From: Chloroflexota bacterium
GTDB lineage: Bacteria > Chloroflexota > Anaerolineae > Anaerolineales > Anaerolineaceae
Length of the DNA: 64,000 nucleotides
Assembly (NCBI GenBank): GCA_016838895.1
Contig: JAEKNU010000003.1
Span: forward strand, 92,707 to 156,706
Direction of reading: 5' to 3'
This document shows positions 52,536 to 57,436 of this stretch, one piece after another. Every line of letters begins with the position of its first letter. The first letter of the stretch is position 1. The position numbers and the translations under genes are program-made. Under the pieces are notes generated by a model. That model saw only the letters and a program-made list of their open reading frames with translations. It was not told the origin of the DNA and did not search any database.

Positions 52536-52571
52536 AAAAAAGGACTATCCAGAAATTCGGATAGTCCTTTT
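52536..52571. terminator. Bidirectional terminator between the lipoprotein gene and ahcY
   Basis: AAAAAGGACTATCC / GGATAGTCCTTTT, 8-nt loop. Confidence 0.88.
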
Positions 52572-52591: not shown

Positions 52592-54836
<2,245 letters not shown>

Positions 54837-54949
54837 CTTATTTGTTTTTAACTCCCAAGTGTGGTCTTATATTCATCTGCTCAGCAATTTCTGGTAAGAT
54901 TAGTTGAGCAGACAGGAAAAAAGCTCTCATCACAGAGAGCTGCTTTGAT
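54837..54949 (-). ncRNA. Structured 5' leader of adoK-ahcY, possible attenuator or riboswitch
   Basis: About 113 nt of RNA precede the adoK ATG. Near its 5' end is a terminator-like hairpin (AGCTCTC / GAGAGCT, 54917-54941, then TTTTTT). Next comes an 8-bp stem TCTGCTCA / TGAGCAGA (54905-54912 with 54876-54883, 21-nt loop). The middle segment CTGCT can pair either with AGCAG before the first hairpin or with AGCAG in the 3' arm, so two structures exclude each other. It lacks the SAM-I core and I do not recognise a known class. Confidence 0.5.
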
Positions 54950-54955
54950 AAGAAA

Positions 54956-54984
54956 AGTTTAGCATGCTATGGCATGTTTGTCAA
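54956..54984 (-). promoter_or_regulatory. Promoter of adoK-ahcY with spacer palindrome
   Basis: Minus strand: TTGACA (54984-54979), 17-bp spacer, TAAACT (54961-54956). The spacer holds CATGC-CATA-GCATG, an inverted repeat that might be a repressor site. Confidence 0.72.
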
Positions 54985-55009
54985 AGAATTTTAATTGGAG
55001 AACTACCGG

Positions 55010-57436
55010 ATGAACCCGAAATTGAAATCTTCCATGCATTTCCGCATGTTCCTTCTTCTACTGATTGGATTGATCATTATTCAGGGATGTAATTTATCAT
55101 CTCTCATCCCTTCAACGGATGCAGACACTCCCGGTATTCTATCCGGTGATTCACTGATCGCATCGCCAGCCCCAACGGTCACCCCCACACCATTACCAAA
55201 AATACGTATTGAAAACGCAGAATACAAAATATTCACTGGTGATTATTTGGCAGCGCTGCAAGACTACGAAACCGCACTTGCTCAAACCAACGATCCTGCT
55301 GAAGCGGCGCTGGCAAAAATGGGTATTGGTAGAGTTCATTATTTACTTAAAGATTATGCATCTGCCGTTGAAACACTTGAACAATTAATTATTAATTATT
55401 CAGATAGTTTCACGGTTGCCAATGCCTATTATTTTCTGGCGCTCTGCTACCGCGATACACAGCGCTATCTTGATGCATCCGCCGCTTTAATGATTTTCAA
55501 TTCCCTGAGACCTGGCATTATTGATCCAACCATTCAAACGATGCGCGGCGATATTCTCCAGGATGCGGATGATTATGCAACGTCAAATGAAGCTTATCAA
55601 GCCGCTATTGATGCTGCACCCAATGAAGACAACACCGCACTTCAAATTGAAATCGGACGTAACTATGCCGCGATGGGTGATCATATTAATGCGGTACGGA
55701 TTTATTCCGGTATATACGAAACAACTACAAATGATTACACCAAAGCTCAAATGAATTTGCTCAGCGGCATCTCCTACATGGCAATGGGCTACCCCGACCA
55801 GGCGTTTCGGGTTTATCAGGATTCGGTTACAAATTATCCAAAATCTTATGATACCTACACTGGTTTGGTTGAATTGGTCAACAACAATATTGATGTTGAT
55901 AATTTAAACCGCGGCATTGTTGATTATTATGCCGGTCAGTATGGTGTTGCCATTGACGTATTCAATCGTTACATGGATGAACATCCAGATCATGACGGGA
56001 CACCGTTATTCTACAAAGCTTTATGTCTTGTTGAAAGTGGACAACAAACTGCTGCTATTGAGATTTATGATGTGCTTATTGAGCAATATTTCGATACCCG
56101 CTTCTGGGAAAGCGCCTGGGATGAGAAAGCCTATACACAATGGGTGTATTTGGACCAATACAAGGCCGCTGCAGACACCTTACAAGAATTTGTTTATCGT
56201 ATGCCTGCATCAGAAAATGCTCCCCAATATCTATATGATGCTGGCCGGATTCTTGAGCGCAGTTCCCAATTACCCGAAGCTGCTCAGGTATGGGGCAGTA
56301 TGATCGATCAATACCCCTCTGCCAGCGAAAGTTTTCGGGCATTATTTTTATCTGCAATTACCCAGTATCGCCTGGGAAATTTCAGCGAGGCAAAGGTTGC
56401 TTTCCAACGTTATTTAGCATTATCAGGAAACAATGAGGATCGTTCTGCTGCTTTTTTCTGGATCGCGAAATGTGAAGAAAAATTAGGTGACGCTCAGGCT
56501 GCACAGGATACCTGGCAACAAGCAGCGCAGGTTGATCCAACTGGTTATTACAGCGAACGTGCGCTGGAAGTATTGGATCAATTGGCGCCCATGACCCCAA
56601 CGGCCGCAATGGTATTTGATGTTGATCTTGAATATGAAAAATCAATTGCCATGGATTGGATGCGGCAAACATTTTCAATTGCCCAGGAAGTTGATTTAAC
56701 CCAAATGGCAGAATTAGCCTACGATGACAATATCCGGAAAGGTGATTTGTTCTGGGATATCGGAATGTACGAAGAAGCCGTTGACCAGTACAATATTGCA
56801 TATGAGCGTTACAAGACAGATCCAATACAGAATTTCCGTTTGATGAATCATATGCTTGAATTATATATGTACCGCCCGGCAATTTTTATGAGCCGCAACA
56901 TTCTTGATCTGGCGAATTTCAGTGAACTTGACACCCTCACTGCTCCGCCCTATTTCAATCATATCCGCTTTGGCACCTATTTCTATGATATGGTGATGAC
57001 TTCATCTGTTGAGTATGAATTAGAACCAGCTTTACTGTTCAGTACGATTCGTCAGGAGAGCCTCTTTGAGGGCTTTATTCAATCTGCAGTTGGGGCTGGT
57101 GGTCTGATGCAGGTCATGCCAGCAACGGGTGATGAAATATTCTCCCAATTAAGTTGGCCTGCTCACTATTCAAGCAGTGATCTTTATCGACCGGTTATCA
57201 ACATTCCCTATGGTGCATATTATCTGCAGCGCCAGCTAACCCTTTTTGATGGGGACGTCATAGCCGCACTGGCTTCATATAATGGTGGCCCTGGTAACGC
57301 ACTGGCTTGGAATGAACTGGCCCAGAACGATCCGGACCTGATGTTGGAAATTATTCGTTTCAATGAAACACGCAATTACATTTTCAATATAGCTGAAAAT
57401 TATCATATCTATTATCGCCTCTATAGAAGCCAATAA
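55010..57436 (+). CDS. Lipoprotein with TPR array and soluble lytic transglycosylase domain
   Basis: 808 residues. Signal peptide with lipobox IIIQGC (Cys about 27) and a Thr/Pro-rich linker. About a dozen TPR-like helices run from residue 65 to 540, for instance YLAALQDYETALAQTNDPAEAAL. The C-terminal SLT domain carries the catalytic Glu in STIRQESLFEG near 683, then VGAGGLMQVMPATGDEI, ASYNGGPGNALAW and ETRNYIF. It cleaves peptidoglycan glycan strands like Slt70. ATG 55010 (GGAG upstream) is preferred to the TTG at 54995. Divergent from adoK. Confidence 0.93.
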   Translation: MNPKLKSSMHFRMFLLLLIGLIIIQGCNLSSLIPSTDADTPGILSGDSLIASPAPTVTPTPLPKIRIENAEYKIFTGDYLAALQDYETALAQTNDPAEAALAKMGIGRVHYLLKDYASAVETLEQLIINYSDSFTVANAYYFLALCYRDTQRYLDASAALMIFNSLRPGIIDPTIQTMRGDILQDADDYATSNEAYQAAIDAAPNEDNTALQIEIGRNYAAMGDHINAVRIYSGIYETTTNDYTKAQMNLLSGISYMAMGYPDQAFRVYQDSVTNYPKSYDTYTGLVELVNNNIDVDNLNRGIVDYYAGQYGVAIDVFNRYMDEHPDHDGTPLFYKALCLVESGQQTAAIEIYDVLIEQYFDTRFWESAWDEKAYTQWVYLDQYKAAADTLQEFVYRMPASENAPQYLYDAGRILERSSQLPEAAQVWGSMIDQYPSASESFRALFLSAITQYRLGNFSEAKVAFQRYLALSGNNEDRSAAFFWIAKCEEKLGDAQAAQDTWQQAAQVDPTGYYSERALEVLDQLAPMTPTAAMVFDVDLEYEKSIAMDWMRQTFSIAQEVDLTQMAELAYDDNIRKGDLFWDIGMYEEAVDQYNIAYERYKTDPIQNFRLMNHMLELYMYRPAIFMSRNILDLANFSELDTLTAPPYFNHIRFGTYFYDMVMTSSVEYELEPALLFSTIRQESLFEGFIQSAVGAGGLMQVMPATGDEIFSQLSWPAHYSSSDLYRPVINIPYGAYYLQRQLTLFDGDVIAALASYNGGPGNALAWNELAQNDPDLMLEIIRFNETRNYIFNIAENYHIYYRLYRSQ

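Follow-up and report, generated by a model that had tools for sequence, protein, structure and literature searches.

The adoK-ahcY operon and its leader

The minus strand of the window, the whole stretch of 64,000 nucleotides analysed here, carries an operon headed by a gene for a PfkB-family kinase of 317 aa (53886..54836; Pfam PfkB, E 2e-38) and continuing with ahcY, which encodes S-adenosylhomocysteine (SAH) hydrolase (52592..53848; TIGR00936, 653 bits against a cut-off of 497.6). The kinase is a putative adenosine kinase (AdoK), an assignment based on operon context and PfkB membership rather than on an equivalog model; the NCBIfam nucleoside kinase model scores below its cut-off on the protein. 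In most relatives, adoK neighbours ahcY and/or mtnA, and in many genomes of the family it lies immediately 3' of mtnA. Just past ahcY, a strong palindromic terminator of 13 bp with an A-run and a U-run (52538-52571) possibly serves both strands. On the upstream side, a lytic transglycosylase gene diverges on the plus strand (ATG near 55011); only ~26 nt separate its start from the adoK -35 box, so that the promoter of the transglycosylase gene must overlap with the promoter or leader of adoK (region 54837-55010). This divergent arrangement is seen again in some other genera (e.g. L024, L027 and L034).

The operon promoter consists of a -35 box TTGACA (54984-54979) and a -10 box TAAACT (54956..54961), which stand 17 nt apart with a spacer ending in the TGC of an extended -10 element. 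Transcription is predicted from sequence to start at 54949, 7 nt after the -10 box, and the adoK ATG (54836) follows 113 nt downstream; the promoter and leader length read in the earlier note are borne out on the minus strand. The leader forms a 7-bp hairpin close to its 5' end (54922..54941), in which AGCTCTC (54941-54935) pairs with GAGAGCT (54928-54922) across the loop TGTGAT, as indicated by folding and sequence and by covariation in relatives. The stem is followed by five U (TTTTT, 54917..54921) and by a UG that is kept in relatives (54913..54914), a candidate pause or termination point with a predicted RNA 3' end at 54914. In the window, this UG stands at offset 8 after the 7-bp core, and the base at -10 relative to it is a C. 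A second stem of 8 bp, formed by TCTGCTCA (54912-54905) and TGAGCAGA (54883-54876), spans 54876..54912 and lies outside the conserved element. Both structures, the terminator-like hairpin with its U-run and the 8-bp stem after it, had been noticed before and are present.

The minus-strand leader folds better than its shuffled versions (z -2.1), and its minimum-energy fold contains both hairpins together, contrary to the earlier proposal that they are mutually exclusive. The alternative pairing on which that proposal relied, AGCAG (54944-54940) with CTGCT (54911-54907), is 11 kcal/mol worse (-15.7 vs -26.7). Nor does competing pairing emerge among ~60 relatives, in which the 5' arm has no excess complementarity upstream or downstream (mean z +0.3 and -0.3, respectively) and no antiterminator was found; thus, no switch is visible in the sequence.

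Distribution of the element in Anaerolineales

AdoK is present in 125 of the 147 genomes of the window's family, and the upstream regions of the gene were collected. Inspection by hand of the relatives in which adoK comes first revealed in most leaders a promoter that is followed, after a short gap, by a GC hairpin and then by a U-run. A covariance model comprising -10 box, hairpin and tail was built from 20 sequences (R1) and run on whole genomes. The model finds a single strong match in the genome of the window, at the window site itself (E 3e-5); the next-best one (E 0.09) is located ahead of an ABC-transporter-like gene. Across the family, 78/147 genomes have matches at E<=0.1, the strong ones being mostly at the operon head, and in most genomes having a strong match the operon head is the top match. 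Where the operon begins with mtnA (mtnA-adoK-ahcY), the element is found ~1.1 kb further upstream, ahead of mtnA, and therefore tracks the operon head rather than one gene.

The same layout occurs in ~60 genomes of the window's family and at ~50 loci from other families of the Anaerolineales. When 251 genomes of the order were searched, eight of nine out-of-family matches at E<=0.001 preceded mtnA or adoK, and the element was present on the sense strand in ~24 of 39 usable out-of-family adoK loci. The sole strong out-of-family match away from the (mtnA-)adoK-ahcY operon (L207, G207:C91:6599-6638) comprises a similar hairpin, a U-run and an AUG before a nucleotidyltransferase-like gene of another family. 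Among 80 loci from named records, nearly all model matches at E<0.2 are in sense orientation before mtnA or adoK; these records include metagenome-assembled genomes that bear the labels Leptolinea sp., Anaerolineaceae and, in many cases, Anaerolineales, and the Acidobacteria and Planctomycetes outgroups in this set gave no model match. Class- and phylum-wide searches used an insensitive model (R2, with poor E-values) and carry no evidence for absence elsewhere; the single R2 match outside the order is at a place where none of the operon genes is encoded. A BLAST search of the leader against plasmids gave no match, no Rfam family matches the conserved hairpin element, and no description of it was found in the open-access literature searched.

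How specific the arrangement is can be judged from ~596 kb of three genomes, which contain 175 sites with a hairpin followed by U4; promoter and UG are added only at the window site and one other. At operon loci, promoter, hairpin, U4 and UG occur together in 14/18 and 11/15 cases. With one non-operon site in ~596 kb, the combination is not general to leaders of Anaerolineales. A generic 5' hairpin shared by many genes was ruled out by scans of these three genomes and of 196 kb of the window's own genome; it is also countered by the genome-wide model searches, in which the secondary matches are mostly ordinary gene-end terminators.

Conserved and variable features

The consensus element runs from an extended -10 promoter over 5-24 nt to the stem, the loop, U3-U6, NN and UG. 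The promoter of relatives has CTTTGACAAA or TTTACA at -35, followed by TGN and TANACT. Across most of the order the -10 box stays TANACT, with C at position 5 and TGN before it, and does not drift to TATAAT, which suggests that the promoter itself is under constraint. The stem consensus is (GR)CGCxCUC/GAGxGCG(YY) and the loop varies from 3 to 11 nt; some lineages have different stems (GCTCCC, GCGCCA, GCCACC) and some have variant tails (UAUUUG, GGUUUUGAUG). A T-run of at least 4 is found in 65/69 and 46/51 relatives, and TG occurs 8 or 9 nt beyond the 7-bp core, equivalent to 6-7 nt beyond the 9-bp stem, in 66/69 and 44/51, counts that partly reflect selection since the models favour the tail in detection. 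The same tail is present almost throughout 32 adoK-first leaders that were chosen solely for their hairpin and its position. The aligned leaders have no conserved nucleotides other than those of promoter, stem, U-run and UG; the loop, too, is unconserved. Of the two hairpins in the window only the first is conserved, the second stem being absent from most relatives. Genus g4 (L024, L030, L033) has a lineage-specific second hairpin, ACCCC...GGGG, after the U-run, which occupies the place of the window's second stem and is unrelated to it in sequence.

Counted from the predicted transcription starts, the hairpin begins between ~+1 and +14, with ~+1 in genus g4 and 5-14 unpaired nucleotides ahead of it in most members, and a short RNA would mostly end at +26 to +49. 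Between U-run and start codon, neither sequence nor length is conserved: several mtnA-first genomes have their start codon only ~6-10 nt past the U-run, without a clear Shine-Dalgarno sequence, and in other members as much as ~100 nt separate hairpin and start codon. These positions bear on a post-transcriptional role, in which a hairpin in the 5'-UTR would shield the 5' end of the mRNA or, with the U-run, shape ribosome binding. The g4 hairpins are compatible with a function at the 5' end, and the U-rich stretch could help ribosome binding where the start codon is close. However, unpaired nucleotides ahead of a hairpin make for poor 5' protection, the changing distance to the start codon amounts to no constant relation to translation, and the U-run and UG would be left unexplained, which makes such a role rather unlikely. 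No leader peptide precedes the hairpin. An upstream open reading frame starting from the RUG after the U-run was dismissed by eye, without a statistical test, as its frames and lengths differ and some are AUG-UAA.

Covariation of the stem on the sense strand

In an alignment of 69 elements, the 9-bp stem is 93% paired and seven of nine pairs show double changes; in a second, largely out-of-family alignment it is 96.7% paired and one pair appears as UG, UA, AU, CG and GC, both alignments being fitted to the model and hence leaning towards structure. The first alignment, A2, produced by MAFFT free of structure, gives 97% pairing and eight double-change cells. For the 69 elements, none of 500 shuffles reaches the observed stem pairing values, and sliding the partners abolishes the signal. 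The upstream comparison and covariation analysis that had been suggested earlier thus supports the first hairpin, which is conserved and covarying, and not the second stem.

The non-Watson-Crick cells of the core comprise 57 G-U and 8 others. Read on the operon strand, nearly all departures are G-U, which fits a function as RNA of the sense strand and not as RNA of the opposite strand or as a DNA palindrome. This has consequences for an operator reading, according to which the inverted repeat just downstream of the promoter would be bound as DNA by a repressor, e.g. a SahR-like one. A conserved inverted repeat does overlap the start region of an SAH operon, and SahR regulons are known in Proteobacteria, where the SahR motif is a 20-bp palindrome with an ATC-10 nt-GAT core common to SamR (PMC4239095). 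This core is absent from the element, however, and the arms covary as expected of paired RNA, G-U being common and C-A rare. Their spacing is not fixed but varies with the loop (3-11 bp), which disfavours a dimeric operator, and U-run and UG again find no explanation, so that an operator is very unlikely.

Lack of space for an aptamer

Genes of the SAM cycle are frequent riboswitch targets, and the same genome has a SAM-I riboswitch before metK, both of which would favour a riboswitch for SAM, SAH or adenosine, of a known or a new class. Yet Rfam gave no match at gathering score in the whole window and, at a relaxed threshold, chance-level matches only (E 0.5-6), in agreement with the earlier observation that the leader does not resemble SAM-I, SAM-II or SAH aptamers. 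Neither the stretch ahead of the hairpin nor, where mtnA is the first gene, the one ahead of the start codon can accommodate an aptamer, and the loop and the remaining leader are unconserved. Since the hairpin starts at ~+1 to +14 and the first gene can begin as little as 6-10 nt beyond the U-run, the leader retains no conserved sequence to which a ligand could bind before a termination decision. A riboswitch is therefore extremely improbable, and so is the new class that had been envisaged. From the broader idea of an attenuation device sensing SAH, adenosine or a related metabolite, attenuation stays plausible, whereas no part of the leader is capable of forming the sensor.

The metK leader itself (G000:C101:8391-8509, L195) holds a clear SAM-I (S-box) riboswitch of 77 bits, with metK downstream. 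With an S-box at metK and the hairpin at adoK-ahcY, the genome appears to rely on distinct leader elements for SAM synthesis and for SAH recycling.

A probable promoter-proximal terminator or pause

The anatomy of the element, its operon-specific conservation and its sense-strand covariation are directly supported. They are probably best explained, with a modest degree of confidence, if the (mtnA-)adoK-ahcY operon of Anaerolineales begins with a weak intrinsic terminator close to the promoter, or with a pause that the hairpin assists. The element could function in the following manner: RNA polymerase would start at the extended -10 promoter, and the nascent RNA would fold a hairpin of 7-9 bp within ~30-45 nt of the start. 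The U-tract, broken after 3-6 U, would end in UG, which corresponds to the elemental pause consensus at the downstream fork. Some polymerases may then pause and release a short RNA, and the remainder would read through into the genes for recycling of SAH and methylthioadenosine (MTA). Pausing or termination, its leakiness and its modulation by NusA/NusG, an RNA-binding protein or another factor would presumably set the expression level of the operon.

Intrinsic terminators release RNA 7-9 nt from the hairpin, and hairpin pauses occur at 11-12 nt (PMC8060035). In the element, 9 nt separate the 7-bp core from the predicted 3' end, or 7 nt if the 9-bp stem is taken as reference, and a GC-rich hairpin and a U-tract stand between promoter and first gene as in intrinsic terminators. 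Weak terminators that have distal interruptions of the U-tract and require NusA/NusG have been described (PMC8060035, PMC9226507). The elemental pause consensus is G-10, Y-1, G+1 (PMC12288461); in keeping with it, YG is found at offset 9 in 45/69 and 40/51 relatives, and the final base of the stem is nearly always G. The terminator score of d'Aubenton-Carafa exceeds 0 in half of the leaders and is clearly below that of gene-end terminators of the same genomes. This is as expected for a leaky attenuator and equally for a pause-only element, and with the short, interrupted U-tract some lineages may terminate only weakly or not at all.

The stem CGC.CTC/GAG.GCG is more conserved than a terminator requires, hinting at possible recognition by a protein. 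SAH, MTA or adenosine might act through a dedicated RNA-binding protein that favours or blocks formation of the hairpin: the arms are near-invariant across the order down to AdoK identities of ~50-60%, which exceeds structural need, and the element is strictly operon-specific. Such a protein would nevertheless have to accommodate the lineages with other stems and the unconserved loop, and no candidate protein is known; we regard this explanation as improbable. Going beyond the weak terminator or pause, the element may, as a tentative extension, constitute an order-wide early-elongation checkpoint, in which a trans factor that senses SAH, MTA or adenosine would bring its influence to bear on the hairpin at +10 to +35 and decide between release of a ~40-nt RNA and expression of the operon. 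If true, this checkpoint would give the SAM cycle a regulatory logic unlike that of any known SAM/SAH riboswitch, of SahR or of MetJ.

In well-studied bacteria, recycling of SAH and MTA is under the control of riboswitches or of repressors such as SahR and MetJ. For Anaerolineales, no regulator of this recycling was found in the open-access literature searched, and a conserved element devoted to one operon provides a concrete, testable handle on its control. With promoter and stop or pause signal within ~50 bp, it is also a compact natural case of possible first-step elongation control. Even if it only set a constant leak, its retention by selection on one operon across a mostly uncultured order would need explaining.

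Comparison with known systems

S-box and SAH riboswitches (RF00162, RF01057) precede the same metabolic genes elsewhere; unlike them, the element has no aptamer and is Rfam-negative. The pyrG attenuator of Bacillus subtilis, in which a terminator near the start is controlled by reiterative G addition, resembles it in the short leader and in a terminator with a C/U-rich 5' arm. Reiterative attenuation of this type was rejected, as the predicted starts, apparently A or a single G, have no conserved G-run. NusG-dependent hairpin-stabilised pauses (trp leader, vmlR) are alike in the hairpin, the T-rich stretch of the non-template strand and the pause-type UG. In B. subtilis, such pauses have TTNTTT at -11 to -6 and a hairpin 11-12 nt from the 3' end (PMC12288461); the element departs from this register, its T-run lying at ~-7 to -4 with a predicted spacing of 7-9 nt. 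Compared with leader attenuators built on an intrinsic terminator, the element lacks an antiterminator, a leader peptide and an aptamer; its hairpin is only ~10 nt from the predicted start, and its stem sequence is kept over an order and dedicated to one operon. The likeness to NusA/NusG-dependent weak terminators of B. subtilis extends from the GC hairpin and U-run between promoter and first gene to the interrupted distal U-tract and the predicted 7-9 nt geometry (PMC8060035, PMC9226507).
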